The notes beneath the pieces were generated by a model. That model worked only from the letters and a program-made list of their open reading frames with translations, was not told the origin of the DNA and did not search any database. The translations under genes and the position numbers were made by a program. A DNA stretch of 64,000 nucleotides from Halostella salina. GTDB taxonomy: Archaea; Halobacteriota; Halobacteria; Halobacteriales; Natronoarchaeaceae. The stretch's first letter is position 1. Each line of letters opens with the position of its first letter. This document shows, piece by piece, positions 7,961 through 33,133 of this stretch. The stretch is from contig NZ_RCIH01000002.1 in assembly GCF_003675855.1 (NCBI RefSeq), forward strand, positions 1 to 64,000, in the 5' to 3' direction.

Positions 7961-8024
7961 TCATAGAGAAAGAGATCGGGTTGTGTTGTAAAGAGCCTCT
8001 TACGTCGTGTGTATTCAGTAGTGT

Positions 8025-8044
8025 ATTATGCGGACAGAGTGGGG
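8025..8044 (+). repeat. ORB-like repeat 3, inverted
   Basis: ATTATGCGGACAGAGTGGGG, the same element in opposite orientation to repeats 1 and 2. It lies 77 bases before the Orc1/Cdc6 start and so faces repeat 2 across an AT-rich segment. Confidence 0.6.
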
Positions 8045-8090
8045 TAGTTATTCTGCTCTCTCAGAATGAAGACGCTCCGGACACGATGGT

Positions 8091-8097
8091 TTTATAA
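8091..8097 (+). promoter_or_regulatory. TATA box of orc1/cdc6
   Basis: TTTATAA centred 27 bases before the ATG at 8121, the distance expected for a leaderless haloarchaeal transcript. It supports the ATG at 8121 over the earlier in-frame ATG at 8103. Confidence 0.6.
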
Positions 8098-8120
8098 GCA
8101 GGGTGCACAATTACGTTCGT

Positions 8121-9314
8121 ATGTCGCGGTCGTTCACAGACCAAACAGACATTTTCGCTGACGAGACGGTTCTCTACGACTCTTGGACACCTGAGGAACT
8201 TCCGGAGCGTGAAACGGAGCTAGATGATCTCCACGATGCCCTTGCGCCCGTGGCGAGAGGTGCTTCCCCACACAACACGTTCGTCTACGGGAAGACTGGT
8301 CAGGGAAAAACCGTCGGTGTCACCTACAAATTAGAAGACCTGCGCGCGTTCGCCGACAATAACGATATCGACCTCTCTATCGTTCGGTATTCGTGCGCCA
8401 AGGACAATACGAGCTATCAGGTCGCCTCAAACCTGGTTGCAGAGCTGTCAGGCGAGAAGCCACGAGGGTACGATAAGAAGACGGTCTTCGACCGTCTTTA
8501 CGAGAACCTGCAAGCGCTTGGTGGAACCGTGATTATCGTCTTGGATGAGATCGATTCGATTGGCACAGACGATGACATTCTATACGAGTTGCCACGGGCT
8601 CGCGCCAACGACCATCTGGAGGACATGTGGGTATCCGTCATCGGGATTTCGAACGACTTCGAGTTCCGGGACAATCTGAGCCCGAAAGTCAAGGACACCC
8701 TCTGTGACGAGGAAATCCACTTTGCTCCCTACGATGCGAGTGAACTTCGATCGATCCTTATCAGGCGTGCGGAGAAGGCGTTCAAGGACGGTATTTTGTC
8801 GGATGACGTAATTCCGCTCTGTGCGGCGATGGCAGCGCAGGACAAGGGTTCAGCGCGGCAGGCGATTCGGTATCTGTACAAGGCGGGTGAACTGGCGTCG
8901 AACGGCGGCGACGAAACCGTGACAGAATCACACGTTCGGGAAGCTGAGGCAGTCATCGAGCGCAAGAGCATCGAGCGAGGCATTCGGGATTTGACCACAC
9001 AGGATCACCTCGCGTTGACCGCGGTCGTTTCGCTGGAAGTGGATGGGGAGACGCCGGCACGCACGAAACAGGTGTACGCGAAGTACACGGACATCACCAC
9101 GCAGATTGGTGCTGAATCGATCGCGATGCGGCGCGTTCGTGACCATCTCCAAGACCTCAATCTAGCAGGTGTCGTGAACGCAATGGAACGAAACAAGGGC
9201 ATACAGGGGGGGCAGCACTATCTGTGGGAACTCGGTGCTGATCTCGGTACGACCATCGACGTCCTTCGGGAGAACGAGCGGCTGGGTGCTGTGATGGAGC
9301 GCATCACTGCGTAG
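8121..9314 (+). CDS. cdc6: Orc1/Cdc6 replication initiator
   Basis: A 397-residue AAA+ origin-binding ATPase. Walker A GKTGQGKT is at residues 57-64, Walker B IIVLDEID at 138-145, and a sensor-1-like ISND near 176. A C-terminal winged-helix region follows (about 290-390). Proteins of this family bind ORB elements and recruit the MCM helicase. Four ORB-like repeats flank the gene, three before and one just after its stop. The start at 8121 fits a TATA box 27 bases upstream. The gene sits in a region rich in toxin-antitoxin and IS genes, so this may be an accessory or integrated-replicon origin rather than the main chromosomal one. Confidence 0.9.
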   Translation: MSRSFTDQTDIFADETVLYDSWTPEELPERETELDDLHDALAPVARGASPHNTFVYGKTGQGKTVGVTYKLEDLRAFADNNDIDLSIVRYSCAKDNTSYQVASNLVAELSGEKPRGYDKKTVFDRLYENLQALGGTVIIVLDEIDSIGTDDDILYELPRARANDHLEDMWVSVIGISNDFEFRDNLSPKVKDTLCDEEIHFAPYDASELRSILIRRAEKAFKDGILSDDVIPLCAAMAAQDKGSARQAIRYLYKAGELASNGGDETVTESHVREAEAVIERKSIERGIRDLTTQDHLALTAVVSLEVDGETPARTKQVYAKYTDITTQIGAESIAMRRVRDHLQDLNLAGVVNAMERNKGIQGGQHYLWELGADLGTTIDVLRENERLGAVMERITA

Positions 9315-9317
9315 GGG

Positions 9318-9337
9318 ATTATGTGGACGCAGGGGGG
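9318..9337 (+). repeat. ORB-like repeat 4, downstream of cdc6
   Basis: ATTATGTGGACGCAGGGGGG lies 4 bases after the cdc6 stop codon, in the same orientation as repeat 3. It has one change in the core (ATTATGYGGAC). Its presence on the far side of the gene suggests the initiator also binds there. Confidence 0.55.
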
Positions 9338-9518
9338 TCCCTCCGGTTAAGAATGATATTCGAAAGGCGGTGCTCAATCGGTTCAAGCAGTTCGTGGGTG
9401 GAACGACGCCCCACCTGAAACTACGCTATCGAGAGTTTCGGCGAGCGTGTCGACGGTCGTTTTGGTGAGAAAGTCGGCGTCGTCGATAACTTCGTCCACC
9501 GCCTCGCCTCCGCAACGG

Positions 9519-11043: not shown

Positions 11044-12297
11044 GTGGCAGACGACTACGTGCGTCGGACGGCAATCACTCGTCTCGAAGTTACGGACGAG
11101 CAACGCGACCTCCTCGAAGAGACTATTACTGAGTGGAAGCGTGGGTGCCAGATTGCCACGGACATGGCGTGGGGCGAGTGCAACGCCAAAAGCGACGTAC
11201 AGCCCCTCGCCTACGATACCGTGCGCGAACACACCGACCTCGGTAGTCAGCACGCGATTCTCGCCACTCATCAAGCCGCACAAGCCATCACCGGCTGTCT
11301 CAAACGTCGGTCAAAAGGCAAGAAGGTGAGCAAACCCACCTTCACCGCACCGACCGTAAAATACGACACTCGGACACTGACACTGTTTGACGATGATACG
11401 GTGTCCCTCTCCACCACGGAGAGTCGCATCCGATGTGACCTTGCTCTGCCTGACGCCGACGATGGCTACCAACGACAGTACCTTGACGCCGACGAATGGA
11501 GCGTTACGGAAAGCACCCTCACCGCCCGTGACGGCGACTACTTCTTGCATATTGGATTCCGCCGCCACAAGACTGATGCTGAGCGGAACACCGCCGAGGA
11601 CGGAACGGTCCTCGGGGTTGACCTCGGTATCGAAAACCTCGCCGTCACCAGTACGGCGTACTTCTTCAGCGGGCGAGAGCTAGCTCACGACCTCCGTGAG
11701 TTCGAGAAGGTGCGTGCCGGACTCCAACAGACCGGGACGCGAAGCGCCCATCGGACGCTCGAACGGTCGAGTGGCCGTGAATTTCGCTACGTCCGTGACG
11801 TACTCCACCAAGCGTCCAACGCTATCGTAGACGAAGCACTCCGATACGACTGTGACATAATTGCGTTCGAGGACTTGACTTACATCCGCGACCGAACGGG
11901 TGCGTCGTGGGGGCACACATGGGCGTTCAGAACGCTCTACGAACAAGTGGAGTACAAAGCCGAGGCGGTTGGAGTGTCGGTAAAGCAAGTGGGTTCGGCA
12001 TACACGTCGAAGCGGTGTACCGAGTGTGGCTTTACGGCCGACGAGAATCGCCCGACTCGTAATCACTTCTGCTGTCAGAAGTGCGAGTCGGAAGCGAACG
12101 CGGATTACAACGCGGCGAAGAATATTGGGATGCGGTACGTCCGTCGAGGCCAACAGTCGTCTCGCCGGACGGGCGACAGTCAACTTGCCCTGAAGTCTGG
12201 AACAGTGACGCCGAGCGACGGATTCACCGCCCACCCGGAAGGGTTCGAGGCCGAGTTCACGGACAAGCCCCATCCTCAAAGCGCCGAAGGCGCTTAG
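11044..12297 (+). CDS. tnpB: IS1341-type TnpB RNA-guided nuclease
   Basis: A 417-residue TnpB with the RuvC-like motifs present: GVDLGIENLAV (first Asp), IAFEDL (Glu) and NADYNAAKNIG (last Asp), plus a zinc finger CTECG...CQKC. TnpB proteins are RNA-guided DNA nucleases that use an RNA from the 3' end of the element. The likely start is the GTG at 11044, since no ATG lies nearby. No tnpA is adjacent, so it is a solo element that cannot move on its own. The 3' end (12268-12312) folds into the stem motif shared with other loci. It appears full length and potentially active. Confidence 0.88.
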   Translation: MADDYVRRTAITRLEVTDEQRDLLEETITEWKRGCQIATDMAWGECNAKSDVQPLAYDTVREHTDLGSQHAILATHQAAQAITGCLKRRSKGKKVSKPTFTAPTVKYDTRTLTLFDDDTVSLSTTESRIRCDLALPDADDGYQRQYLDADEWSVTESTLTARDGDYFLHIGFRRHKTDAERNTAEDGTVLGVDLGIENLAVTSTAYFFSGRELAHDLREFEKVRAGLQQTGTRSAHRTLERSSGREFRYVRDVLHQASNAIVDEALRYDCDIIAFEDLTYIRDRTGASWGHTWAFRTLYEQVEYKAEAVGVSVKQVGSAYTSKRCTECGFTADENRPTRNHFCCQKCESEANADYNAAKNIGMRYVRRGQQSSRRTGDSQLALKSGTVTPSDGFTAHPEGFEAEFTDKPHPQSAEGA

Positions 12298-13045: not shown

Positions 13046-13662
13046 CCTGTACCACTACGCGGCGAGACCGGTTCAATCCAGCGAGAACGTCTGATTCACT
13101 GCTTGCAAGGCGACGCCGAGGAATTCGAGAGTGGCTCAAGGTCAGCGAACATGGGGTAGAGTGGATCCGAAGCACGAAGGCCGGGAATTCGGTAGCGCCC
13201 ACTCCCCACTTTTTCATACCAATCGGAAGGACCCGTTTGAATGCACGACAGCTGATCTGGTATGAAAAAGTGGGGTGGGGTGTGTGTTACTCGGCTATCG
13301 TACTGTCGGCCGGGCTCGGTCGAAACTCCAACGAGAACGAGTCGAGGAGGGAATACGGGAACTGACCAGACACGAACGGCTCACCCGCAGAACACCGTGT
13401 GTGCACTCGCGCTGCTGTTCGAGATCAGGTGGCGCAGGTGAACGGGCCGACCCGACCACTCCACACTGTAGTCTCAGTATTTGAGTCGCCTGAACTACCT
13501 GCGGTCCCGGTCGTTGATTCGGCCCTGCACCCCGCTTCCAGCAAATGTTCTATCAGGCAGTAGTGTTTTATACTTGATTGCCACTTCACAGGGTGTAGAG
13601 TTCCTTGACATGACAAATCGACTGCAATCGGGGCAGGCGTTCGGGGACCGAGTGGGAATCGG
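13046..13662. other. Long intergenic region with a perfect inverted repeat
   Basis: About 620 bases contain no convincing gene; the open frames here are short and of random composition. The main feature is the 18-base inverted repeat at 13204-13275. The final 60 bases before 13663 should carry the promoter of the four-gene operon. Confidence 0.45.
13204..13275. repeat. Perfect 18-base inverted repeat
   Basis: CCCCACTTTTTCATACCA at 13204-13221 is matched exactly by its reverse complement at 13258-13275, separated by 36 bases. The second arm is followed by TGGGGTG. The arms share a TATG...GTGGGG outline with the ORB-like repeats near cdc6 but lack the CGGAC core. It may be a protein-binding site pair, the ends of a tiny mobile element, or a strong hairpin. 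Confidence 0.6.
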
Positions 13663-14649
13663 GTGGCAACCGACGCGGAAGCGGGCAAAACCAAACTAAC
13701 CGTGTACTTCACGATCAAAATCATCCGACTCGTTCTGAAGGTCGTCCTGTTTCCGTTTCGGTTACTCCTCCGACTCCCGAGGCTCGTCACGAATATCGGG
13801 GGCAGCGATCAGTCGGGGTACGAAGAAGCGTACGGGTACGAAGAGCAACCGCCGTCGGAGGCCGGAGCGAACGGGCAGGTGACAGAGCAGCACCGACCGT
13901 CGGGCCAGCCGGTCGACAGTGGTCGCGGGGAGTACAAGCAACAACAGGAGCCGTATCGGGAGGACGCCGCTCCGACACGAGGCTCCGAGCCGCACGCCGA
14001 GCCGGCCCAATCGACGGCGCCGCCTGAGCAGTATGGCCAACAGGCGGGGCCACAGGCACAGGCGCAAGCACCGGCAGCACAACCGGCCGCAGGGACCGGA
14101 GGCGGCACCGGCGCGGAACCGGCCCAGCGGGCTTCCGAACAGGCGGCCGCAGGCACAGGGGAACACGCGGCGGCCAACGACGCGGGACAAGCACCGGCGG
14201 ACTCGACAGCACCGGATGCGACAGCGACCACGACCGCCGTGTCGGATGAAGCCAGCCGGGACGGGACCGGCGCTCAAGACGAGGGAGACAGTCAGGACTC
14301 CGAAGACGAAGCCGCCGACGAGGAGGACGAAGCGGCCGACGAGGACGACCTCGAGGCGCGCAAGGCCGAGTACGCGTCGGCCCTGTCGGCATCGGACCCG
14401 GCGACGAGGGAGGACGGCGTTCGGCAGGTTTCGGCGGCCGTCGAATCGGGTGACCTCCCACCGACAGCGGCGATGGACCTTCTTCAAGAGCCCCTCGGAG
14501 ATGACGATCCGGGCGTCAGGGCGGCGGTTTGCGAGGCGCTCGCAACGATCGGAACCGATGCGGCCCGAGACGCGCTCAGAGACCTCCGCCTCGACCCGGA
14601 CTCGCAAGTGAGCCGCGCAGCGACGCAAGCCTATCGAACCCTCGACTAA
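13663..14649 (+). CDS. Membrane-associated HEAT-repeat protein, first gene of a novel operon
   Basis: A 328-residue protein in three parts. Residues 13-45 form a hydrophobic/arginine-rich helix (IIRLVLKVVLFPFRLLLRLP) likely to lie in or on the membrane. Residues 50-225 are a disordered linker rich in Gln, Pro, Ala and Glu, ending in an acidic block (DEAADEEDEAADEDD). Residues 235-328 contain HEAT-like repeats (GDDDPGVRAAVCEALATIG, DPDSQVSRAATQAYRTL). GTG at 13663 is the most upstream start; GTG at 13702 is possible. It is followed at 71 bases by a membrane/coiled-coil gene and two further coupled genes. A scaffold or partner-binding role is likely. Confidence 0.65.
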   Translation: MATDAEAGKTKLTVYFTIKIIRLVLKVVLFPFRLLLRLPRLVTNIGGSDQSGYEEAYGYEEQPPSEAGANGQVTEQHRPSGQPVDSGRGEYKQQQEPYREDAAPTRGSEPHAEPAQSTAPPEQYGQQAGPQAQAQAPAAQPAAGTGGGTGAEPAQRASEQAAAGTGEHAAANDAGQAPADSTAPDATATTTAVSDEASRDGTGAQDEGDSQDSEDEAADEEDEAADEDDLEARKAEYASALSASDPATREDGVRQVSAAVESGDLPPTAAMDLLQEPLGDDDPGVRAAVCEALATIGTDAARDALRDLRLDPDSQVSRAATQAYRTLD

Positions 14650-14720
14650 CTCATGCTAGCACACACGCAGCCAGCGACGACGAACCGTTCTCGAACCACC
14701 GACCACGCGGGGGCCACGCC

Positions 14721-16394
14721 ATGCGCGTGACCGACGTCTGTTACGAACAGGGGGAGGGCGTCGAAGAGGAGCGGGCCCGTGCCTTCGCCGTCAACGAGGT
14801 GTTACGAGGGCCGCTGAGCGAGTTCCTCGAATCACAGGAAGCCCAGGCCAAGCGGGCGGCAGCCGTCGGGGCGATCGGTATCGTCCTCGGTGGCGCACTG
14901 CTGATCGGCGGGAGCCAGGGGACGCTGGGAGCAGGGCTGATCGTCGTCGGCGCCGTCATCGGCGGTGGCGGGCTGTACTACGTCCGCTCGCAGGATCCCG
15001 ACGTGACCGTCACCGGGGTCCGGAAGGGGTACTGGACGAGCTACTGCGTCCCGGAGGGCGACGGTGCTGTCCTCTACGACGCGACCGACTCGCGCCAGCG
15101 GACGACCTTCAACCTCGAACTGCTTGACGACCGCGACCGGATCGCCCGGGCAAGGGAACAGCTGCAGGACGTCGAGGAGTTCCCCGTCGTCATGCCAGCG
15201 GACGAAAACGTCGAGGAAACCGTCGCCGAGACGCTCGAATCCGTCTCCGAGGAACTGGATTCGGCGAGGGAACGGACCGTCTCCGCACCGGTTATCGGAC
15301 GGACCGAACCGGCCGCGGACGCCGTCGACTTCCTGGCCGACCGGGCAGTCGCCGACCCCATCCCCACCGAGACGGCGATCGACCCGGGACAGGCACGGGA
15401 CGACGTTAGCGCGCTTGCCGACCTCAAATCGATGGCGGCGACCGCTGACGGCGACGCGGAACTCGAAGCGGTCAGCGAGAGCAGCCGCACCATCGCCTCC
15501 GATCTGTCTGGCCATCAGGAGACGGCGATCGGCGTGCTAAACGACCACATCGAAACTGCAGCCGACGCGTTCGGCATCGTCAGTTACCACTTCTACTGTC
15601 CGGACTGTCTGACCGACGACGTGGAGACACGCCTCGAACTCGTGGACCCGGACGACGGGACGTGGGTGTGTGAGACCTGCCGGAACCACCACGAGACCGC
15701 CGAAACCGTCCCGCGCCACCGGATCGAGGACGACATCGTCAATCCCGTCTGGGACCAGCTCTGGACCGAGAAGGACGACGAGCGCCGGCGGATCTACGAG
15801 GAGATCGAGGACCAGAAGGCGGATCTGACCGAGCGCGAGTTCGAACAGCGCCAGGAGGAGATCCGGTCTGCGACCGACCGGATCCGCGACCTGCGCTCGC
15901 GGGTGCGCGACCTCGAAACGCAGGCCAAAGCCGCCGAGGGGACCGTCGACGAGATCGGCGAGCTGATGGTCAAGTACGAACACCTCCACCAGGAGCGCAA
16001 GGCGGAGTTCCAGACGGAGGTCAGCGAGGCGTTCGCCGAGATCGACGCGAAAACCGAGCAGATCCTGGCGGAGACGCGAAACGAGGAGCAGGAACGCATC
16101 GAAGCCGCCGAGCAGGCGGCACAGGAGAAAGCCGAGCTCATGCGCGAAGAGAAGCAAAAGCGCGAGCGCGCGAAGTTCATGGCCCGCCAGCAGATGGAGA
16201 ACAAACGCACGAAAGCGAGCATGCAGAACGAACGCGCCACGACGGCGGCGAAACTCTCCCAGTCGGCCAAACAGCACAAGCAGGACGTCCTGCTCGATAC
16301 GCACGGCAGCCTCAGCTCCTCGAAGCACATTAACAACGCCCGGAAGTGGAAAGTCGACAACCTCGGCGCCTCGAAGAACGGGGGTGGGACCTGA
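14721..16394 (+). CDS. Two-TM, zinc-ribbon, coiled-coil protein
   Basis: A 557-residue protein starting at the ATG at 14721. Two glycine-rich TM helices (residues 48-62 and 68-88) are followed by a beta-rich segment (95-135). A linker comes next, then a zinc ribbon with C293, C296, C317 and C320 and nearby histidines (H323, H324). A long charged coiled coil spans about 350-515, and the C-terminus is basic (HINNARKWKVDN). I do not recognise the family. Its stop overlaps the next start (ATGA at 16393-16396), so the two are translationally coupled. The zinc ribbon and coiled coil should face the cytoplasm. It probably assembles with the proteins encoded next to it. Confidence 0.65.
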   Translation: MRVTDVCYEQGEGVEEERARAFAVNEVLRGPLSEFLESQEAQAKRAAAVGAIGIVLGGALLIGGSQGTLGAGLIVVGAVIGGGGLYYVRSQDPDVTVTGVRKGYWTSYCVPEGDGAVLYDATDSRQRTTFNLELLDDRDRIARAREQLQDVEEFPVVMPADENVEETVAETLESVSEELDSARERTVSAPVIGRTEPAADAVDFLADRAVADPIPTETAIDPGQARDDVSALADLKSMAATADGDAELEAVSESSRTIASDLSGHQETAIGVLNDHIETAADAFGIVSYHFYCPDCLTDDVETRLELVDPDDGTWVCETCRNHHETAETVPRHRIEDDIVNPVWDQLWTEKDDERRRIYEEIEDQKADLTEREFEQRQEEIRSATDRIRDLRSRVRDLETQAKAAEGTVDEIGELMVKYEHLHQERKAEFQTEVSEAFAEIDAKTEQILAETRNEEQERIEAAEQAAQEKAELMREEKQKRERAKFMARQQMENKRTKASMQNERATTAAKLSQSAKQHKQDVLLDTHGSLSSSKHINNARKWKVDNLGASKNGGGT

Positions 16395-17347
16395 TGTCCG
16401 CCGGCAACGACGACCTCCATCCCATCCTGAAGCGGATCAACGAGACCCTCGCGAACGTCCGAACCGAAGTCCAGCGCGTGCAGGGCGAACTGGAGAAGGT
16501 CCGGACGGCCATCACCGACGGCGTCGAAACCATCCGTGACGCTATTCAGGAGAGCATCCAGGCCCAGGCCGAGCTGAAGCTGATGGAGCACGTGATGGAG
16601 GCCAAAGCGGTCAAGCCCCAGATCGAGGCCGAACACGACCAGATAGAGACGGAGCGCGAGGAACTAGACGAGCGGATCGCCACCATCAACGAGCGGTACG
16701 AACGAAAACACGAGGAACTCGACCGGAAGGCAAACAGACGGGTCCGTGATGTCGGCTCGCACATCTTCGACGTGCAGGAAGACCAGTTTGAGGAGGGCAT
16801 CGAGGGGCCGTTTGTCGACCAGGTGACGACGACGTGGGAAACGCTGCAGTCCCACAACGACGAGGTCAAGCAGGACCGGGGCGAGCGCGTCCGCGGCAGC
16901 GTCGGCGACGCCGTCCAGACGATCCACGACTTCATCGACCGGCAGTCCAAGCTCATCGACGACATCGACGCCCACCGCTTCGACGACGGGCGGCTCCCGG
17001 GACGCCCCGGCCAGTTCCGGCAGTTCCAGGTGCCCTACTACGTCGTCGAGTACGAGGAAGACGGCGTCGCGCATAGCCAGCTCGTCGTCCCCTCGCACGT
17101 CGATGCCGCGCCGGAATCGGAGTGGTCGACCGTCTCGCTCTCGCCGGTCTCGGGCGCGACGGACCTGCTCGGCGACGTGCCGACGCCGCGGGACGGTCAT
17201 TCTGACCCGACGCCAAGCACCGCGATCGCCGACCATCTCTCGGCGTACGGCGAGGGGAGTTCGCTCGGCTCCTCCTACGGTGACGCCGTCGAGTCGGCGC
17301 TGCCCGACGAGCAGCTGTCGGTCACTGTCGAGGGAGGGGACCGCTGA
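16394..17347 (+). CDS. Soluble coiled-coil protein, partner in the four-gene operon
   Basis: A 317-residue cytoplasmic protein. Residues 1-135 form an almost continuous alpha-helical coiled coil (INETLANVRTEVQRVQGEL, IEAEHDQIETEREELDERI). A mixed alpha/beta middle (140-250) contains FRQFQVPYYVVEYEEDGVAH, a strand-rich motif that may be a small binding domain. The C-terminal 60 residues are low-complexity Ser/Asp. There is no TM segment. Start and stop both overlap its neighbours (ATGA at each junction), so all three proteins are made together. No family assignment. Confidence 0.65.
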   Translation: MSAGNDDLHPILKRINETLANVRTEVQRVQGELEKVRTAITDGVETIRDAIQESIQAQAELKLMEHVMEAKAVKPQIEAEHDQIETEREELDERIATINERYERKHEELDRKANRRVRDVGSHIFDVQEDQFEEGIEGPFVDQVTTTWETLQSHNDEVKQDRGERVRGSVGDAVQTIHDFIDRQSKLIDDIDAHRFDDGRLPGRPGQFRQFQVPYYVVEYEEDGVAHSQLVVPSHVDAAPESEWSTVSLSPVSGATDLLGDVPTPRDGHSDPTPSTAIADHLSAYGEGSSLGSSYGDAVESALPDEQLSVTVEGGDR

Positions 17348-18144
17348 TGGCTCACGTCGAACGCACGCGGGCAGTCGTCGAAGCGGGCGAGACGTACGAC
17401 GGGCGGATCTTCCCGACCGTGCAGGCGGAACTGGGACGGCAGGTTCGTCTGCGGGAAGGGTCGACCGTCCTCGGCAGCGTGTACGGCGGCACCGTCGAAC
17501 TGGGGCCCGACGCGTCGGTCGAGGGGTCCGTGATGGCCGAGGACGGCGTCGAACTCGAGGGGGGCCACGTCCAGGGCGAACTCGGGACGCCCGGGAAAGT
17601 GGTCGCGAAAGATACCCACGCCGAGGGGACCGTGACTGGCACTCGGGTTCGGTTGCAGGACTGCGTGGTCCGCGGGAACGTAGTCGGCACCGAAGTTATC
17701 CTAGAGAACTGCATCGTCCTCGGCATCGTGACGGCCGAACGATCGCTCACCGCCGAGGAGACGCTTTGCTACACGTTCCGCTCGCACGGCGAGACGACGC
17801 TCTCGGAGACAACAGTCGTGTTACCCCAGGCGGTCGCCGACGGCCCGCTCTCGCTTGAGACGCCCGTTGCGGTGGCCGGGCTTGGCGAACTCGACTTCGA
17901 GGGTGAGGAGGACGTTCTGCCCGAGATGACTGCCGACGACGTGTACGAGCAGGACGGGACGACGTTCCTCACGCTCGCCCCGCGGATCCTGAACATCGAG
18001 GCGGCGAAGGCAACGCTAGAGGAACTGGAGTCGGGGATCATGGCTGCCGTCGACGATACGAGCGACGAGGAAGGGGCCACGATGGATGTCGAAGCGGTAC
18101 TTGCGGGACTGGGGGTTGACCACGAGAAGATCATGGGTGAGTAA
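17347..18144 (+). CDS. Bactofilin-like polymer-forming protein
   Basis: A 265-residue protein. Residues 10-140 are a run of short beta-strand repeats (STVLGSVYGG, VELGPDASVEGSVMAEDGVE, GEVTG-type turns), the pattern of a right-handed beta-helix as in bactofilins and other 'polymer-forming cytoskeletal' proteins. The rest (150-265) is an acidic helical domain not found in plain bactofilins. Bactofilins form filaments on the membrane; haloarchaeal relatives (halofilins) affect cell shape. As the last gene of an operon with HEAT, TM and coiled-coil partners, it is likely the structural element of a membrane-bound assembly. The start at 17347 overlaps the previous stop. Confidence 0.65.
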   Translation: MAHVERTRAVVEAGETYDGRIFPTVQAELGRQVRLREGSTVLGSVYGGTVELGPDASVEGSVMAEDGVELEGGHVQGELGTPGKVVAKDTHAEGTVTGTRVRLQDCVVRGNVVGTEVILENCIVLGIVTAERSLTAEETLCYTFRSHGETTLSETTVVLPQAVADGPLSLETPVAVAGLGELDFEGEEDVLPEMTADDVYEQDGTTFLTLAPRILNIEAAKATLEELESGIMAAVDDTSDEEGATMDVEAVLAGLGVDHEKIMGE

Positions 18145-18257: not shown

Positions 18258-19562
18258 TCACCACGTCAGTCCTTCGTAGACGATCCCATCTCGACGGTCG
18301 ATCGCCCGGCGACCGTCTATGACAACAGGTGTCGCCATCGAATCAAATTCATCGTCAAGAGCCGTGATTTCCGGCCAGTCAGTGACGACGAGTGCTGCGG
18401 TTGATCCGTCTAGAGCGGTCGCGGGACTCGACGCGTAGCTCACGTCGGGGAACCGCTCACGCATGTTCTCGGTCGCGACAGGGTCGTACGCGACGATATC
18501 AGCGCCGCGTTTCTGAAGCCCTTTGATGACGGGAATCGCCCGTGAGTTCCTGATGTCGTCGGTCCCGGGTTTGAACGCGAGGCCGAGCACCGCGACGCGT
18601 TCATCGTGTACGTCGACGTGGTCGTCCATGAGCGACAGCAGGCGATCGGGCTGGCGGTCGTTCACCTCGGTTGCGGCGTCCAGCATGAGCGGCTCGTAGT
18701 CCTGCTGTCGTGCCGCCGCTCTGATCGCCGCGGTATCCTTCGGGAAGCAACTCCCGCCCCAGCCGATGCCGCTTCGGAGGAACTGCTCGCTGATGCGGTC
18801 GTCCAGCCCGATAGCATCGGCGACCTCGTAGGCGTCGATGTCGAACTCCTTGCAGATGTTCCCGATGTCGTTGATGAGACTGACTTTCGCGGCGAGGAAG
18901 CCGTTGTTGGCGTACTTGATCATCTCCGCGGTTCGGGTGTTCGTCTCGATGACCGGAGCGTCGGCGTTCGCAACGAGTGGGTTGAAGACATCGGCCATGT
19001 CGGCAAGCGCGCGGTCGTCGTCCGCGCCAAGGACGACTTTGTCCGGGTTGCGGAAGTCCTGGACGGCGCTCCCTTCCCGGAGGAACTCCGGGTTCATGCC
19101 GACGCCGAACGCCTCGCCAGCGCTCTTGCCGCTTTCCGCTTCGAGGATCGGCGTGATAGCGTCTTCCGTCGACCCCGGAATGACGGTGCTTTTCACGACG
19201 ACCGTATGCCAGTCGTCTTTTCCCGCAAGGGTTGCGCCGAGTTGCGACGCACCGGCTTCCATGATGGAGAGGTCGATGCTTCCGTCGTCGTTCTGTGGCG
19301 TCGGGAGACAGAGGAAGGTCACCTCGGTATCGAGGATAGCGTCGTAGTTCGTCGTCGCGCGGAGTCGACCAGTACCAGTCTCGCCCGCGTGCTTTTCGAT
19401 CAGATTCTGGAGACCGTCCTCGTGGATGGGGGCGGTACCGTCGTTGATCGAGCCGACGATATCCTGGTCGATGTCGACGTTGACGACATGGTGGCCGAGA
19501 TCCGCGAAACAGGCTGCGATCGTGGTTCCAACGTAGCCGCTTCCGATGACGGAGAGATGCAT
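18258..19562 (-). CDS. aglM: UDP-glucose 6-dehydrogenase (AglM)
   Basis: A 434-residue enzyme that oxidises UDP-glucose to UDP-glucuronate with NAD. The Rossmann motif GSGYVG is at residues 7-12. The middle domain has [11 protein letters not shown], and the catalytic cysteine is C272 in [10 protein letters not shown]. The C-terminal UDP-binding domain carries [16 protein letters not shown]. The ATG at 19562 gives the standard N-terminus [12 protein letters not shown]; the upstream extension is unconserved. It is divergent from the pyrophosphorylase gene at 19699, which makes its substrate, and followed in the pathway by the decarboxylase at 20562. In Haloferax AglM supplies hexuronic acids for N-glycans. 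Confidence 0.92.
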
Positions 19563-19698
19563 ACCGGGTATATCTGAACGGTATCTACATGAAGGGACGG
19601 GTTGAGCCGTCACCTGATGTCCAACGGCGGAGAATCGGCCGGGGTTCTACTCAATAACAAAAGGTATTTATCTAGAATATAGATCCTACTAACGAGTT

Positions 19699-20565
19699 AT
19701 GGAGGTTACAAAAGCAGTTATTCCTGCTGCGGGATTTGGTACGCGATTCCTCCCAGTAACGAAGGCCCAACCGAAGGAGATGATGCCCGTTCTCGACAAA
19801 CCGACGATCCAGTACGTCGTCGAGGAAGCGGTCGAGGCGGGAATCGAAGACATTCTCATCATAACGGGCCGCGGGAAACAGGCGATCGAACGTCATTTCG
19901 ACAAGTCGTACGAACTCGAAGAGGAACTCGAGGCGGCTGGCAAGACAGACCGACTCGACCGCGTGCAACGGATCTCTGACCTCGCAGATATCCACTTCGT
20001 TCGGCAGAAGGAACGTAACGGGCTCGGTGACGCAGTACGATACGCTCAGAAGCACGTCGGCGACGAACCCTTCGCGCTTCTGCTCGGTGACACGGTTATC
20101 GAGAGTACCACCCCGTGTACCGAGTCCCTCATCAGGTACGCCGAAGAGTACGAAACCTCTGTGTTATCCCTCGAACGGGTTCCGTGGGCGGATGTCCCGA
20201 AGTACGGGATCGCCGACCTCGGCGACGCGTCGGAGGAGCAGGCCTGCTTCCCAGTGGAGGATTTCATCGAGAAACCCCCACGGGACGAAGCTCCGTCAAA
20301 TCTCGCGATCACTGGGCGTTATGTATTTACCTCGGAAATCTTCGATCGACTCGAACAAACCGAAGTCGGTGTCGGTGGCGAACTCCAGCTGACGGACGCT
20401 ATCCAGAAGCTGGATCACGTTCGGGGGGTCGAACTCACGGGTGATCGCTACGATATCGGGAACATCCCCAGCTGGTTGCAGGCCAACATCGAGATGGCGC
20501 TCCAGCACAACGAAGGCGAAATGAATACCGCCGTGGAAGCACTGATCGAGGAGTATTCCCAATGA
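19699..20565 (+). CDS. aglF: UTP-glucose-1-phosphate uridylyltransferase (AglF/GalU type)
   Basis: A 288-residue nucleotidyltransferase forming UDP-glucose. The signature AAGFGTRFLPVTKAQPKEM lies at residues 10-28. PTIQYVVEEAVEAGI and the metal site region LLLGDTVI (near 135) are also typical of GalU. A TATA-like region (TATTTATC, about 19664) precedes the ATG at 19699. The stop overlaps the next gene by 4 bases (ATGA). With AglM opposite and the decarboxylase downstream, it makes the first step of a UDP-glucuronate/UDP-xylose route. Substrate could in principle be another sugar-1-phosphate; the context favours glucose. Confidence 0.9.
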   Translation: MEVTKAVIPAAGFGTRFLPVTKAQPKEMMPVLDKPTIQYVVEEAVEAGIEDILIITGRGKQAIERHFDKSYELEEELEAAGKTDRLDRVQRISDLADIHFVRQKERNGLGDAVRYAQKHVGDEPFALLLGDTVIESTTPCTESLIRYAEEYETSVLSLERVPWADVPKYGIADLGDASEEQACFPVEDFIEKPPRDEAPSNLAITGRYVFTSEIFDRLEQTEVGVGGELQLTDAIQKLDHVRGVELTGDRYDIGNIPSWLQANIEMALQHNEGEMNTAVEALIEEYSQ

Positions 20566-21494
20566 GTCGGGTTCTCGTCACCGGTGCCGCAGGCTTCCTC
20601 GGTAGTTATCTCTGTGATTCGCTGCTTTCGGACGGCTACGAAGTAATCGGGATGGATAACCGAGTGAGCGGGCGAACCGAGAACCTCGATAACGCCTTCG
20701 GTCACGATCGGTTCACGTTCTACGAGCACGACGTGACCGAGTTCATCCACGTGAATGGCGAGTTGGACGCCGTGCTCCATCTCGCGAGTCTCGCGTCTCC
20801 CGTGTTCTATCGCGAGCATCCGATAAAGACGCTGAAGGTCGGTGCTCTCGGAACCCACAAGACGCTTGGACTTGCAAAGGAGAAAGACGCCACGTACCTC
20901 TTTACGTCGACCAGTGAGGTGTACGGCGATCCCGAGGTCAACCCCCAGCCGGAGGACTACCGCGGGAACGTCGATCCCTACGGTCCGCGGTCGTGTTACG
21001 ACGAATCGAAGCGCTACGGAGAGTCACTCGTGCGGGCGTACCGCGACCAGCACGACCTGGATGTGCGGGTCGCTCGAATCTTCAACACGTACGGTCCGCG
21101 AATGCGTATCGACGACGGACGAGTCATTCCGAACTTCATGCGTCAGGCCCTTACTGGGGAGGACCTGACCGTGTACGGGGACGGCGAGCAGACGCGGAGC
21201 TTCTGCTACGTTTCGGACATGATTGACGGACTACTAGCGCTGCTCGAATCCGAGGTTCAGGACCCCGTGAATATTGGCAACCCTGACGAGCGAACGATCA
21301 ACGAGCTGGCGGAGGTCGTGTTAGAGGTCACCGGGAGCGAGAGCGGAATCACCTATGAGGAATTACCGCCACAGGATCCGAAGGTGCGCCGGCCCGATAT
21401 AAAGAAGGCGCGGGCAGAACTGGGATGGGAGCCCGGGACCACCTTACGGGAAGGACTACAGAGATCGATCGAGTACTTCGAAGAACAGGTGTGA
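20562..21494 (+). CDS. UDP-glucuronate decarboxylase-like SDR (UDP-xylose synthase)
   Basis: A 310-residue extended short-chain dehydrogenase. The NAD motif TGAAGFLG is at residues 7-14, a catalytic Ser/Thr in FTSTSEVYG near 118, and YDESK (Y146, K150). Motifs that separate the UXS branch from epimerases are present: HLASLASPVFYREHPIKTLK, GTHKTLGLAK, and FNTYGPRMRIDDGRVIPNF. The expected reaction is UDP-glucuronate to UDP-xylose plus CO2. Translation is coupled to the pyrophosphorylase upstream. The set UDP-glucose synthase, dehydrogenase and decarboxylase is complete within 3.3 kb. Confidence 0.85.
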   Translation: MSRVLVTGAAGFLGSYLCDSLLSDGYEVIGMDNRVSGRTENLDNAFGHDRFTFYEHDVTEFIHVNGELDAVLHLASLASPVFYREHPIKTLKVGALGTHKTLGLAKEKDATYLFTSTSEVYGDPEVNPQPEDYRGNVDPYGPRSCYDESKRYGESLVRAYRDQHDLDVRVARIFNTYGPRMRIDDGRVIPNFMRQALTGEDLTVYGDGEQTRSFCYVSDMIDGLLALLESEVQDPVNIGNPDERTINELAEVVLEVTGSESGITYEELPPQDPKVRRPDIKKARAELGWEPGTTLREGLQRSIEYFEEQV

Positions 21495-23824: not shown

Positions 23825-24760
23825 ATGTCACTTCCAGGGATCCCTATCCGGACCCTATATCCCGCCATAGCAGCGGTACTACAGTCCAGGATTCGTTTTG
23901 GCCACAATATTTACTCAGAAGATTGGGACGCCCTCATTATTCTTGATGCTTGTCGTGTTGACGCGTTACGGGAAGTCCAGCACGAATATGATTTTTTGAC
24001 AGACATAGAAACACGGTGGTCACGGGGGAGTACGTCAAAAGAGTGGCTGGAAAACACGTTTATCGAGCCCTATAGGGATGAGATCGAATCAACCACGTAT
24101 ATTACTTCTAATTATTATTCTACTGAGCTGAGGGAGGAGAATATGAACCGGCTCGGGTATCCAATGGCGGAGGATGAACCTGTTGGGGAACGGGTGTTCA
24201 AGACGTTGCTTCAAGACGATGTCCTCTACGCGTCTGAGTTTGGGGAGTTCATCTCCCTGTTTGATAGGGCGGTGTACGAAGACGGGAAGCAACTTCATCC
24301 TGAGATGGTCACCGATTGTGCGATCACCGTCGGCCGGGAGAGTGACTGGGATCGGCTCATCATCCATTATATGCAGCCACACCATCCATTCATTCAACGC
24401 GATGATCCGCCGAGATCTCATCGAGAGCCGTTCGCATACCTGAACGACGGTGGCCATTTTGAGGAGGTGTGGGAGGGATATCTCGGCAATCTCAGGCTCG
24501 CCTTAGATGCTGTCGAACTCCTATTAGAGAATCTCGATGCTGAAAAGACAGTCATCACAGCAGACCACGGTGAGTTGTTCGGGGAACTAGGACAGACCGG
24601 TCACGGCGTTGGGATTCCGCATCCGAACCTGCGAAAAGTCCCGTGGGTAGAAACGACGGCGTCCGACACCGGGTCGTACGAACCAGAGTATGAACGGACT
24701 GAGGAACGTGCCGCAGAGGACGAACTTCAGGAGCGGTTAGAAGCACTCGGTTACCGATAA
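23825..24760 (+). CDS. Alkaline-phosphatase-superfamily enzyme, paralog 1
   Basis: A 311-residue protein of a haloarchaeal AlkP/sulfatase-like family. It has DWDALIILDACRVDAL (metal ligand D41), a conserved Ser (S71) in the SKEW motif at the usual nucleophile region, IIHYMQPHHPF, and VITADHGELFGE near 245 (metal-binding Asp/His). There is no signal peptide or TM segment. It lacks the Cys/Ser-x-Pro-x-Arg motif of true sulfatases. It is likely to transfer or remove a phosphate- or sulfate-type group on glycans. It ends in a RLEALGYR tail shared with other members here. Its last 100 bases are nearly identical to those of the gene at 25054. Confidence 0.7.
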   Translation: MSLPGIPIRTLYPAIAAVLQSRIRFGHNIYSEDWDALIILDACRVDALREVQHEYDFLTDIETRWSRGSTSKEWLENTFIEPYRDEIESTTYITSNYYSTELREENMNRLGYPMAEDEPVGERVFKTLLQDDVLYASEFGEFISLFDRAVYEDGKQLHPEMVTDCAITVGRESDWDRLIIHYMQPHHPFIQRDDPPRSHREPFAYLNDGGHFEEVWEGYLGNLRLALDAVELLLENLDAEKTVITADHGELFGELGQTGHGVGIPHPNLRKVPWVETTASDTGSYEPEYERTEERAAEDELQERLEALGYR

Positions 24761-25053
24761 ACCGATTTTCAATCTTGCTGGGGTCTTAGGTTCACATTCT
24801 TGACTATGGAGGTAGGTCCACCGACACAGAATCGACGAAGAAATCTATAAAGTCTCCACGCTAAACTGGAGGTCTATCCACTCGGATGAGAAATACCCAT
24901 GTTTTCAGGTAGTGGATCCGATTGTAGTCCTTGAAATCCAACCGCTCATTCATCGGTTTGGTCATTGTCCCACCATAGGTTCTAACATCGTGGTCTGGAA
25001 AGTGACTAGCGCCCTATAGAAACGTTAATAATTTACTGGAAAAGTTCAACTGT
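24761..25053. other. Intergenic region between two AlkP paralogs
   Basis: About 290 AT-rich bases separate the paralogs. No gene is seen. A weak TATA-like AATAATTTA (about 25028) lies 25 bases before the ATG at 25054. Confidence 0.4.
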
Positions 25054-25992
25054 ATGGGTCGAATCGCTACAGAATTAGTCGGAGCATATATATCAACCGT
25101 CTCTATTGTTCAGTCGTATTTCCGGTTGGGGACAAACATCTATGAAGACGATTGGGACGGACTCATCGTTCTTGATGCTTGCCGTGTTGATGCATTACGC
25201 GAGGTACAGGACGAATATGAATTTCTGACAGGTATCGAATCACAGTGGTCGAGAGGGAGTAACTCAAAGGAATGGTTAGAAAATACGTTTACTGCCGAAT
25301 ATCTGAACAGGATCGATTCAACGGCGTATATAACCGCAAACCCATTTGTGAACGAATTAGATGGTTCCCCACCTGATCCATCGGGATATCCACCGGGTCG
25401 AGATTCGGCAATCTGTAATAATCGACTGACCTCAGGACTTATTCGGGACGATGTCGTCTCGGCAGAAGATTTTGGTGATATAATCGAACTGTGGGACCTG
25501 GCTACGGGAGAAGACGACCCTCAGACCCACCCCAGTCCGGTAACTGATTGTGCAATAACCACCGCTCGAAAGACGGATTATGAACGATATATAATTCATT
25601 ATATGCAACCGCACCACCCATTTTACGGAGATGCGGGGGACAAGCCATGGAATAAAGAGCCGTTTAGGTATCTGAAAAACGGTGGCGATTATGAGGCAGT
25701 GAGGGATGCTTACATTGACAACCTTCGGCTTGTACTAGATCATGTCGAACTCCTGTTGGAAAACTTTGACGCAGAGAGCGTCGTGATCACAGCTGATCAC
25801 GGAGAACTATTCGGAGAGTGGGGATTGTATTCGCATATGGTTGGAGTTCCGCATCCGAATCTGCGAAAAGTCCCGTGGGTAGAAACGACGGCGTCCGACA
25901 CCGGGTCGTACGAACCAGAGTATGAACGTTCTGATGAGCGAGTTTCGGAAGATGAACTTCAGGAGCGGCTAAAGGCACTCGGTTACCGATGA
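25054..25992 (+). CDS. Alkaline-phosphatase-superfamily enzyme, paralog 2
   Basis: A 312-residue tandem paralog of the preceding gene with the same landmarks: D41 in LDACRVDAL, S71 in SKEW, YIIHYMQPHHPF, and VITADHGELFGEWG. It diverges in the middle (residues 100-150) but is almost identical at the 3' end: a block of about 75 bases from 25850 matches 24619 onward with one difference. This suggests gene conversion or recombination. The C-terminal tail is RLKALGYR. Substrate unknown. The different middle segment implies a different acceptor from paralog 1. Confidence 0.7.
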   Translation: MGRIATELVGAYISTVSIVQSYFRLGTNIYEDDWDGLIVLDACRVDALREVQDEYEFLTGIESQWSRGSNSKEWLENTFTAEYLNRIDSTAYITANPFVNELDGSPPDPSGYPPGRDSAICNNRLTSGLIRDDVVSAEDFGDIIELWDLATGEDDPQTHPSPVTDCAITTARKTDYERYIIHYMQPHHPFYGDAGDKPWNKEPFRYLKNGGDYEAVRDAYIDNLRLVLDHVELLLENFDAESVVITADHGELFGEWGLYSHMVGVPHPNLRKVPWVETTASDTGSYEPEYERSDERVSEDELQERLKALGYR

Positions 25993-26071
25993 CACGCTCA
26001 CATTTTTACGACGATACGTATGATACTTCAGAACCTTTGTATGTTGACACACATCAAGAATATAGAAGGTG

Positions 26072-27316
26072 ATGACAGTCCAGTCTCCTCTCCGGAAAGC
26101 TCTGCGATACTATCGAGAAAACGGTGCTTTCACGCTCGCCCAGTCGACGTTCAATTATCTCGGGTTTGCGGGTTGGCCCGTCGTGGGGAGGGCTATCGAC
26201 GCAGTGTATCCGAGATTCATTGTCCCCTCGGAGGAGCTCAAATCGGAGTACTGCTCCCAATATTGGGAGTTAGAGGACGATCTTGATGGACTCCACTACG
26301 GCCTCAACGAGAAGATCGCACCACTCCAAGACGATCCCTTACTCTCCTATAACTACTATCCGCGATTTGCGTTCAAACAGCCGTTCGTTGCTGAGGTGCC
26401 GAACATCTCCGTCGCCGGTCCCTACGCGAGCGCATTCACGGATGACGGGAAGGTCCTCCTCGACCCGCACAATTCGTTCACGCCGGGGGCTGGCTGGCGC
26501 ACGGGTGGTGCGATCAAGACGGCCATCTCGGACGTACCACTTACCGTCGGAACCGCATTGCTTCGTGGGCATGCCCCGGAACCGACACGGACGGTCCCTA
26601 TCGCGGCGCTCGTCCACGACTATTGGGGCAACTTCTATCACTGGACGCTCGAAGAATTGCTCAAGCTCCGGGGTGTCCAGCAGTACGAACAGACAACGGG
26701 CCGCGAGGTCCCGATTATTATTCCGTCGGACCCGAAACCGTACATCACTGAATCGCTCAGGTTGCTCGGCTACGACGAAGACGACTACATCGAGTGGGAC
26801 GGAGAGCCGTTAGGCGTCAAGCAACTGGTCGTGCCGTCGTTCCCGGATCCCACGCCACGCGCGATCGAGTGGCTACGGAACGAGATCACCAGCGGAATTG
26901 ATCTATCGGACGAGACCAGTCCTGACTGGGTGTACGTCTCCAGACAGAACGCAAGTAAGAGGCGCGTGGTCAACTATGAGGAGGTACTGCCGGTGCTGGA
27001 GCAGTACGGTGTGCAGCCAGTAGAATGTGAGACGCTCTCGTTGGAGAAGCAGATTCGGTTGTTCAGTGGTGTAGACGGAATCATCGGCCCACATGGGGCA
27101 GGATTGACTGGGATGATTTGGGGGTCGGATATCCGCGTTGTCGAGGTGTTCAACAACGTTGTGAAGGGTCCATATTACGTATTGGCACACGTCCTCGGAC
27201 ACGACTATACGGCACTTTCAGCGGATCCTGTCGGAGATGCACACAGTGAGCGAGAAAGAGATGTACATATTGAACCAAACAAATTAGCCGAGACGCTTGA
27301 TCGGCGTACAAATTGA
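26072..27316 (+). CDS. GT61 family glycosyltransferase
   Basis: A 414-residue enzyme with the DUF563/GT61 pattern: HDYWGNFYHWTLEELLKLRG near residue 195, VPIIIPSDPKPYITESLRLL, WVYVSRQNASKRRVVNYEEV, and GPHGAGLTGMIW near 345. The GTG at 26069 directly precedes the chosen ATG at 26072. GT61 includes beta-1,2-xylosyltransferases of plants and animals. A UDP-xylose synthase lies 5 kb upstream, so xylose transfer is a reasonable idea but not proven. The codon composition is GC-rich, in contrast to the AT-rich genes that follow. Probably cytoplasmic, membrane-associated. Confidence 0.8.
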   Translation: MTVQSPLRKALRYYRENGAFTLAQSTFNYLGFAGWPVVGRAIDAVYPRFIVPSEELKSEYCSQYWELEDDLDGLHYGLNEKIAPLQDDPLLSYNYYPRFAFKQPFVAEVPNISVAGPYASAFTDDGKVLLDPHNSFTPGAGWRTGGAIKTAISDVPLTVGTALLRGHAPEPTRTVPIAALVHDYWGNFYHWTLEELLKLRGVQQYEQTTGREVPIIIPSDPKPYITESLRLLGYDEDDYIEWDGEPLGVKQLVVPSFPDPTPRAIEWLRNEITSGIDLSDETSPDWVYVSRQNASKRRVVNYEEVLPVLEQYGVQPVECETLSLEKQIRLFSGVDGIIGPHGAGLTGMIWGSDIRVVEVFNNVVKGPYYVLAHVLGHDYTALSADPVGDAHSERERDVHIEPNKLAETLDRRTN

Positions 27317-27410
27317 TTCAGTACTTTGTTTAGATAACCATATTTAGATTATGTAGAATTGGGACTCGCTATAGACCGGTCGAAGATATTCATATCCCTG
27401 AATCCATAAT

Positions 27411-27644
27411 GTGAAGAAAAGTATTATCGTTATGATAGAAGGTGGCTCTATGGTCAGTTCCGAATTATATCTTGATTACCTCCCATCTCAGGTTGTCCGG
27501 GTAGATGAGATCACTGATGTTGGTAGTGGTATGTCTCCTTGTTATCATATACAAAGGGAGTCAGATGTTTGGACTTCAACATCTGCAGAAAGTCTTATTA
27601 ATAAAATAGTGGAACTAAAACAGAACTCTGGGTTGAACAGCTAA
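27411..27644 (+). CDS. Small hypothetical protein
   Basis: A 77-residue frame starting at GTG 27411. It is AT-rich (KKSIIVMIEGGSMVSSELYL ... SLINKIVELKQNSGLNS), with alternating strands and a C-terminal helix that look protein-like. No family recognised. It lies between the GT61 gene and a convergent GT8-like gene, with no obvious operon partner. It may be the remnant of a larger AT-rich gene brought in with the neighbouring island. Confidence 0.4.
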   Translation: MKKSIIVMIEGGSMVSSELYLDYLPSQVVRVDEITDVGSGMSPCYHIQRESDVWTSTSAESLINKIVELKQNSGLNS

Positions 27645-27677
27645 TCCCACTCAATCTTTATGTTTTTAATTCTTCTC

Positions 27678-28535
27678 TTACTCTAACATCCGCTTACCAG
27701 CTATTATCATTTGACCGACCCCCTCTTCTTTTCGTTTTTCATTGGCTCGTTTTAATAGATCTATTGTTCCAGATACACCAGTATCACGTATCTTGTACCA
27801 CATCGATTTTTTATTCGTTACAACTCGAAACGGGTATCTGTCAAATGTAATCACACGTCGCCCGGTGTTTCGATTAAGTCTCCGACTGAAGTCGTCGAGT
27901 TCCTTTTTCGAATACCCTTGATGATGGATGATTTTTACCTTCCCAGATGCATAGGATACATTCTTATTCATGAAATTGTATTCCGGAGTTAGAGTTAGAA
28001 TTTCAATTTCTGAGTTGTATAATGCCGATCGTAAGGCTGGTTGGTTATATTTGTAATTGAGTGACTCGTATGTTTCCTGCCAATGTTTGAAAAGTCCTCT
28101 GACTGACGGTGAATCATTAAATGCGATTACACCGCTATTATACTCTGGGAATGAATCAGGAATACTCAACCCATGTTCTTTATAAACATCCTCATTCCAC
28201 CAGTGGCGGGCATTATTATGTGCCATCGCCAGATCTCCACGATCAAGTAGATCAAATATTTCAGATATATTGCCACATATGTAGGTGTCTGCGTCCAAAT
28301 ATAGGTTCTTATCGTGTTTTATATGATCTTCAGTTAAAATACTATCACCAGCAACAGAGACTTCGCTATCTATATTTATTACGTTATCAAACACACCCTT
28401 TTCAATATCTTCGTCCGTATAGATTGTTATTGAGACATTAGGATTGTATTTCTTTAGACTTTTAGCAGAAACACGTGCGTGGCGAATGAAGGCATCGCCA
28501 GATGCGATATAAAACGCCCCTCTTGACATATCCAT
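27678..28535 (-). CDS. GT8-like glycosyltransferase
   Basis: A 285-residue (from 28535) GT-A fold enzyme: an N-terminal RGAFYIASGDAFIRHARVSA strand-helix, YTDEDIEKG, the DxD metal/nucleotide site in KNLYLDADTYICG, EYNSGVIAFNDSP, a Gln-Pro-Ala-Leu motif and the late histidine of IHHQGYSKKEL. It is strongly AT-rich (codons such as ATA and TTA), unlike the flanking aglM-aglF block. That marks it as recently acquired. ATG at 28529 is an alternative start. The donor and acceptor sugars cannot be predicted. It is convergent with the small gene at 27411 and divergent from the AlkP gene at 28598. Confidence 0.7.
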   Translation of the reverse strand: MDMSRGAFYIASGDAFIRHARVSAKSLKKYNPNVSITIYTDEDIEKGVFDNVINIDSEVSVAGDSILTEDHIKHDKNLYLDADTYICGNISEIFDLLDRGDLAMAHNNARHWWNEDVYKEHGLSIPDSFPEYNSGVIAFNDSPSVRGLFKHWQETYESLNYKYNQPALRSALYNSEIEILTLTPEYNFMNKNVSYASGKVKIIHHQGYSKKELDDFSRRLNRNTGRRVITFDRYPFRVVTNKKSMWYKIRDTGVSGTIDLLKRANEKRKEEGVGQMIIAGKRMLE

Positions 28536-28597
28536 ATATTTTCTGTCACACAGCAAAAAGCTTTCTGTGTTTAAGAATAGTATCTCTGCTAACCGAT

Positions 28598-29581
28598 ATG
28601 GTTTCAGGACGAATACATCGTGGACTAGAGGTGCTTCAAGAAGGAGGACTACTAAGCCTAAAGAGAGCTGTATTCAATAATCTCGCCCCTCGATACATTG
28701 GGAAAGTCCTCTCTTGTAACGGTCTGTATGGGGAAAACGTCTTTTCGAGGGACTGGGATGTTCTAATTCTACTGGATACCTGTCGTGTGGATGCGTTACA
28801 AGCAGTTGCTAACGAATATGAGTTCATAGCTGACGTGAATAGCATTCGCTCAGTTGGAGGTACATCAGCTGAATGGATGGCAAATACATTCACACAGAAA
28901 CATACAGAGACGATAAATGAGACAGCATATATAGCGAATAATGCTTTCGCTTCTAAGCTATTTAGCGAATCCGGATATTCTCTACCCGAGCTTCCATTTT
29001 GTAGCTGGAAGACAGTAGAAGAAAACGACTTCGGAAAGCTTGAGCATATTTGGAAATATGAACCCAAAGGAGAGGGAGGTGAGCTTGGACACTTAATGGG
29101 CCATACTCCACCACGCCCGGTAACAGATCGTGCTATATCTGTCATGAGAAACTCAGATTACGAGCGTGTTATCCTTCATTACAACCAGCCTCATAAGCCG
29201 TATACAGCAGACGCACTTGATGAAAACCGAGAACTGCAAGAGCACGAACATTTCCCATTTGACTATTTAAGAAGGGGAGGGAGTAAAGATACGGTATTCA
29301 ATTCCTATCTGAACAATCTTCGATATGTATTAGATGACGTAAAGCTACTGCTACAGAACATTGATGCGAATCGTGTCGCGATTAGTGCTGATCACGGGGA
29401 AGCGTTTGGTGAGTACTGTACGTATGAACATCCGTTTGGAAGTCTCAACCCAGTTGTACGCCTTGTTCCCTGGGTGATTACATCAGGAGAAGACGATAAA
29501 ACATATATACCCGAATTTGATCCCATTGAAAATACGGATAGAGATGTTGATGTACTACTTAACGCACTAGGATATACATGA
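28598..29581 (+). CDS. Alkaline-phosphatase-superfamily enzyme, paralog 3 (AT-rich)
   Basis: A 327-residue member of the same family: DWDVLILLDTCRVDAL (D60; Thr replaces the Ala before Cys-Arg), S90 in TSAEW, VILHYNQPHKPY, and VAISADHGEAFGEY. The N-terminal 50 residues carry an extra helix not present in paralogs 1 and 2. ATG at 28598 is preferred over the earlier in-frame start. AT-rich codon use shows that it belongs to the imported segment rather than arising by local duplication of the GC-richer copies. It ends in LLNALGYT, the shared tail. Confidence 0.7.
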   Translation: MVSGRIHRGLEVLQEGGLLSLKRAVFNNLAPRYIGKVLSCNGLYGENVFSRDWDVLILLDTCRVDALQAVANEYEFIADVNSIRSVGGTSAEWMANTFTQKHTETINETAYIANNAFASKLFSESGYSLPELPFCSWKTVEENDFGKLEHIWKYEPKGEGGELGHLMGHTPPRPVTDRAISVMRNSDYERVILHYNQPHKPYTADALDENRELQEHEHFPFDYLRRGGSKDTVFNSYLNNLRYVLDDVKLLLQNIDANRVAISADHGEAFGEYCTYEHPFGSLNPVVRLVPWVITSGEDDKTYIPEFDPIENTDRDVDVLLNALGYT

Positions 29582-29593
29582 TATAGGATGACG

Positions 29594-32359: not shown

Positions 32360-32444
32360 CACCTCGTTCTCATCTGTCACGATATATATGTGCTGTGGGA
32401 TACGGCTCTGTAGAATTTATAACCCAGGAAAGATATATCCGCGT

Positions 32445-33131: not shown

Positions 33132-33133
33132 TC

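Follow-up and report, generated by a model that had tools for sequence, protein, structure and literature searches.

Within the 64,000-nucleotide stretch of Halostella salina DNA analysed here (the window), we found that three consecutive genes of a four-gene operon, called B, C and D below, form a unit that stays together in the same order at 18 of 18 loci, and that the fourth gene, A, is a common partner of this unit and no fixed subunit. On balance, we lean towards the reading that B-C-D forms the central part of a cytoplasmic scaffold anchored in the membrane, which A joins as a common membrane-bound partner and which is paired with an ESCRT system in some archaea and ESCRT-free in others. 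The linkage to ESCRT, Vps4 and kinase genes in relatives had been missed by the earlier note on this DNA, and it likely changes the function to be expected of the operon.

In the open reading frames of the window, all four genes lie on the plus strand: A at 13663-14649 (GTG start, 328 aa), B at 14721-16394 (ATG start, 557 aa), C at 16394-17347 (317 aa), and D at 17347-18144 (265 aa), with the protein features that the earlier note had listed for them. A and B are separated by a spacer of 71 bases, with no overlap, and the B/C and C/D junctions each overlap by 1 base (TGATG). It had been claimed that the last three genes are joined by 4-base ATGA or 1-base overlaps; the 1-base overlap is there at both junctions, but the window holds no 4-base ATGA, and a 4-base C/D overlap was found in one relative (L063). 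Overlapping junctions by themselves do not tell whether the stoichiometry is fixed, as had been thought likely. About 90 bases 5' of gene A, on the plus strand at 13566-13576, inspection of the sequence shows a TATA-like stretch, TTTTATACTTG, a possible archaeal promoter for this gene. A TnpB-like transposon gene (11044-12297) lies upstream of the operon, and elsewhere in the window there are an Orc1/Cdc6 replication-initiator-like reading frame, recognised by eye (8103-9314), and a low-G+C region (24001-36000, 0.40-0.52) that may be an acquired island, with genes of paralogous look at 23825-24760, 25054-25992, and 31442-32380.

The 18 loci come from 15 genomes of the order, together with Halorarius halobius (L016), Halorientalis marina (L021), and one genome of another class (G409). 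Among the 392 genomes of the order, the set that carries B and the set that carries D are one and the same, namely these 15. Between the three genes, the spacing at the haloarchaeal loci measured runs from a 4-base overlap to a 3-base gap, and the genes flanking them otherwise vary from locus to locus. Since B, C and D are adjacent everywhere and overlap or nearly do so, their belonging to one assembly is supported. The earlier note had proposed to check whether the four genes stay together in other genomes, and had held the lack of a conserved neighbourhood against its own proposal; the neighbourhood of B-C-D is in fact conserved at all 18 loci, but a relative of A adjoins it at only 11 of them, 5' of B in some and 3' of D in others, and it is for this reason that we take B-C-D to be the core. 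At one locus (L022), A-like genes stand on both sides, upstream of B and downstream of D, at three others (L018, L019, L056) an 81-aa membrane protein follows D in the place of A, and four loci (L011, L012, L063, L107) have neither. As for the extent of sampling, a scan of 84,980 genomes with two patterns gave 7 loci, all haloarchaeal, and misses carriers found by other means, and the search for more carriers in the class of G409 covered three genomes.

The A protein was described previously as a HEAT-repeat protein associated with the membrane by its N-terminus, and this description holds: it has a single hydrophobic helix at residues 12-30 and a C-terminal HEAT domain at residues 253-324 (PF13646; score 42.1 bits, cut-off 27.7), with a long acidic, Gln-Ala-Pro-rich linker between the two. 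Its relatives carry several additional hydrophobic segments in the middle of the protein, which the A protein of the window lacks.

The earlier description of the B protein, with two transmembrane segments, a zinc ribbon and a long coiled coil, likewise agrees with the predictions. A pair of neighbouring hydrophobic segments (46-64 and 67-85) is predicted to form a membrane hairpin, and it is followed by a small beta domain at about 107-134, by the zinc ribbon, whose four cysteines (C293, C296, C317 and C320) are invariant in all 16 of the haloarchaeal sequences as well as in the distant copy of the other class (L107, about 31% identity), and by a predicted helix of 183 residues (340-522), in which the residues EK.D..R..YE.IEDQK are invariant down to that same other-class relative. 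The structural model of B is poor as a whole (pLDDT 64, pTM 0.22); with moderate to low confidence, it shows the N-terminal hydrophobic helices and the 183-residue helix, and between them the small beta domain and the ribbon region. C is a soluble coiled-coil protein with a conserved helical core and a conserved C-terminal region, and its coiled coil is as conserved as that of B. No curated Pfam or NCBIfam family matches B, and C falls in no known family, its coiled-coil matches being unspecific. The matches to PDB sequences, a designed repeat protein and 14-3-3 for B, and a designed protein and a myosin fusion for C, were judged spurious.

For D, AlphaFold2 predicts a beta-helix at about residues 30-176, where pLDDT is mostly 90-98 (mean pLDDT of the whole protein 82.6, pTM 0.80, from a 17-row alignment), followed by a separate, acidic and partly helical C-terminal region at about 190-265, the extra acidic domain that had been noticed before. 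It is the bactofilin-like character claimed for this beta-helix that stands only in part: the fold is confidently predicted and 16 of 17 D relatives match the bactofilin HMM PF04519 at E <= 0.1, but the D protein of the window scores 20.1 bits against a cut-off of 27.9, and the D protein of L022 is the only one above this cut-off among the matches listed (29.0 vs. 27.9). D aligns weakly with the other PF04519 polymer-forming proteins of its host and of related genomes, a set that contains no protein named as a halofilin, and a Foldseek search of D against the PDB returned weak beta-helix resemblances and no significant match (best E 0.12), with no bactofilin in the best 50 listed. Judged by sequence, D thus stands at best on the margin of the bactofilin family. 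It shares with bactofilins and the haloarchaeal halofilins a predicted beta-helix of comparable kind and a recognisable HMM similarity, and it differs from them in its marginal score, its additional C-terminal region, and its constant tie to B and C. From this weak bactofilin similarity we infer that D may form filaments.

The distribution of B-C-D is patchy. In a tree of concatenated B, C and D proteins, the branching is discordant with the families of the carriers, those of one family (f4) falling in several places and those of another (f1) in two. One genome (G055) has a frameshifted B gene, either a decaying copy or a sequence error, and at a second locus of the same genome (L108) a 45-residue N-terminal remnant of B. 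In another (G048), the 3' end of D alone remains (L014:10008-10217, corresponding to G048 C3:114008-114217), with a TnpB-like gene in the same region, and in a third (G005) the 3' end of D is duplicated elsewhere in the genome, over 323 bases at 97.8% identity (L015:5093-5415 and L012:9081-9403). The family-discordant distribution, together with the remnants and the frameshift, fits horizontal transfer and frequent loss of the module. No relatives of B were found in the viral contigs of IMG/VR or the plasmids of PLSDB, nor relatives of D in phage records.

ESCRT is a membrane-cutting machinery common to archaea and eukaryotic cells; haloarchaea are thought to divide with FtsZ, and we know of no role assigned to ESCRT in them. 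In two closely related haloarchaeal genomes (G270, locus L053; G108, locus L054), genes for an ESCRT-III-like protein, for a single-domain AAA ATPase with a MIT-like N-terminus (recognised by eye), and for a kinase lie 5' of B within a few kb, and the Ser/Thr kinase gene, together with that of an FHA-like protein called by eye without Pfam support, stands before B. By their layout, two further genes of L053 resemble those of arCOG08177 and arCOG09748 proteins, names that we assigned from the descriptions in PMC10936438 and not from a database match; that paper describes these two as signatures of the archaeal ESCRT "Main" systems (Makarova et al. 2024). In the genome of another class (G409, L117/L107), the locus begins with Vps4-like, ESCRT-III-like and small membrane protein genes, continues divergently with arCOG08177-like, arCOG09748-like, second ESCRT-III-like and second Vps4-like genes and one for a long helical-repeat (HEAT) protein, and ends with a kinase gene on the opposite strand, a membrane coiled-coil protein gene, and B-C-D itself. 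A third case is the truncated B of G055, which lies behind the kinase of an ESCRT-type locus (L108, G055 C1:1487001-1507000); a transposase-like gene flanked by similar short sequences lies between this kinase and the B remnant, at about 7965-9372. Ser/Thr kinase genes are found 5' of B in three haloarchaea in all, namely at L053, at L054 and at L022 (7402-8601), where a second A-like gene lies on the other strand between kinase and B. ESCRT-type loci without B-C-D were also seen (L119 of G354, L120 of G121, and L121 of G366), with several kinases carrying long extra domains.

At these ESCRT-type loci, the assignments to the kinase, AAA and PP2C families are secure, and the ESCRT-III-like calls rest on gene order beside a Vps4-like gene and on sequence character, Pfam giving no Snf7 match for these proteins. 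With a profile made for them, 10 strong matches were found in the 392 genomes, distributed over 4 of the 15 carriers of B-C-D versus 6 of the 377 other genomes (Fisher p = 2.6e-4, with phylogeny ignored), and the chance of two independent linked loci by position alone is, as a rough estimate, about 3e-4. Given that G270 and G108 are close relatives, we count about two independent linkages, or three with the B remnant. The ESCRT link is therefore real but partial, marking a single branch of the family and an outgroup, and it may be ancestral with later loss or may have been gained twice. Among the cultivable carriers, Halorubellus salinus has no linked ESCRT genes, and in Halonotius aquaticus the ESCRT-III-like genes lie at other places of the genome. 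The remaining 11 of the 15 carriers of the order, the window genome included, have no ESCRT-III-like gene and no strong arCOG09748-like match by profile search, and the search of the window genome for Vps4 gave 13 AAA matches, several of which lie in reading frames of the two-domain Cdc48/VCP-like kind, with two further regions lacking an ESCRT-type neighbourhood. That the window genome shows no such ESCRT system means that the module can exist without it.

We also compared the module with the components of the known archaeal ESCRT systems. In G270, G108 and G409, B-C-D adjoins ESCRT-III-like, MIT-like-AAA and Ser/Thr kinase genes, much as described for the "Main" and Halo_FHA systems in the available part of PMC10936438, in which B, C, D and bactofilins are not mentioned. 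In contrast, when A, B, C and D were compared by hhalign with seven sets of ESCRT components, no convincing match emerged (top probability 8.7%), and most genomes with B-C-D do not have this ESCRT system. With the SPFH, zinc-ribbon and coiled-coil proteins of ESCRT loci, B shares a membrane segment, a small beta domain, a zinc ribbon and a coiled coil, but it has no profile match to the SPFH-like protein, so that the resemblance would be a functional analogy at most. The hhalign result was accordingly our reason to set aside a kinship of B and C with ESCRT parts or with the SPFH-zinc-ribbon protein.

These same observations bear on what else the operon could be. It could be a self-contained cytoskeleton of the halofilin or bactofilin kind for cell shape or curvature, with B as the membrane anchor and C and A as adaptors, its proximity to ESCRT in a few genomes being mere co-location in gene-rich accessory islands without joint function. 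The bactofilin-like character of D speaks for it, as do the majority of carriers without this ESCRT system and the influence of halofilins on cell shape in Haloferax volcanii (reviewed in PMC12186497); we nevertheless consider it rather unlikely, since the link to ESCRT-type and kinase genes is seen again in the genome of the other class, at about 31% identity, and beside a decayed B in a third haloarchaeon, the host already has other polymer-forming proteins that align weakly with D, and one would expect genes for cell shape to be spread less patchily than 4%. An accessory cassette, frequently lost, with the task of strengthening or mending the membrane upon infection or envelope damage, in a role like PspA/ESCRT-III repair, would suit the patchy, horizontally spread and decaying distribution, and the ESCRT-type machinery and kinases physically linked to it in some genomes. 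Such an anti-virus or membrane-stress module is improbable in our view, because PADLOC gave only unspecific, partial coiled-coil-type matches on A-D, because the neighbours showed no enrichment in defence genes (four families matched among 81 neighbour proteins, two of them Cas12-like, as TnpB would give), and because, in the searches mentioned above, B was found neither in viral contigs nor in plasmids, and D was not found in phages. A known defence system was rejected as well, with PADLOC returning nothing specific on A-D and these 81 neighbours.

Very improbable, finally, is the reading of D as a beta-helix enzyme or ligand-binding protein of the hexapeptide type, monomeric or trimeric, within a metabolic or sugar-modifying complex. 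D does show weak hexapeptide/LbH and eIF2B-type matches, and UDP-sugar genes (dehydrogenase, nucleotidyltransferase and epimerase-like, 18258-21494) adjoin the operon in the window; against this, no catalytic residue pattern was recognised in D, bactofilin is the family most widely matched by its members, and the sugar genes are not conserved beside B-C-D elsewhere.

Returning to the membrane-anchored scaffold that we favour, it may be pictured as follows. B would be held in the membrane by its hairpin, with the zinc ribbon and the long coiled-coil rod projecting into the cytoplasm, where C would bundle with the rod, and C and/or B would bind the C-terminal region of D, the beta-helices of which would stack into a patch or filament of the bactofilin type beneath the membrane. 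The ESCRT loci described in PMC10936438 suggest, by analogy, that the kinase-linked versions are probably under phosphorylation control. Such a scaffold would cooperate with Vps4/ESCRT-III-like membrane remodelling in some archaea and would act without an ESCRT-type system in others, among them the organism of the window. A more specific proposal, which we put forward tentatively and with more doubt than conviction, is that B-C-D, with or without A, belongs to archaeal ESCRT systems as an accessory module so far unrecognised. It would be a bactofilin-like scaffold, anchored in the membrane and controlled by a kinase, which gives the membrane its shape or position for ESCRT-III and Vps4 and which also occurs as a stand-alone cassette.

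In the titles and abstract openings of the openly licensed literature searched, no paper joins bactofilin and ESCRT in such a system. The strictly linked unit consists of B and C, two conserved families that have no curated name, and of D with its divergent bactofilin-like sequence, and the named genes, together with natural carriers with and without ESCRT, make a direct test possible. If the reading as an accessory module is true, a beta-helix cytoskeleton and ESCRT would be directly linked, and if the ESCRT linkage is functional, it would join two membrane-shaping machineries that have so far been unconnected in the titles and abstract openings of that literature.
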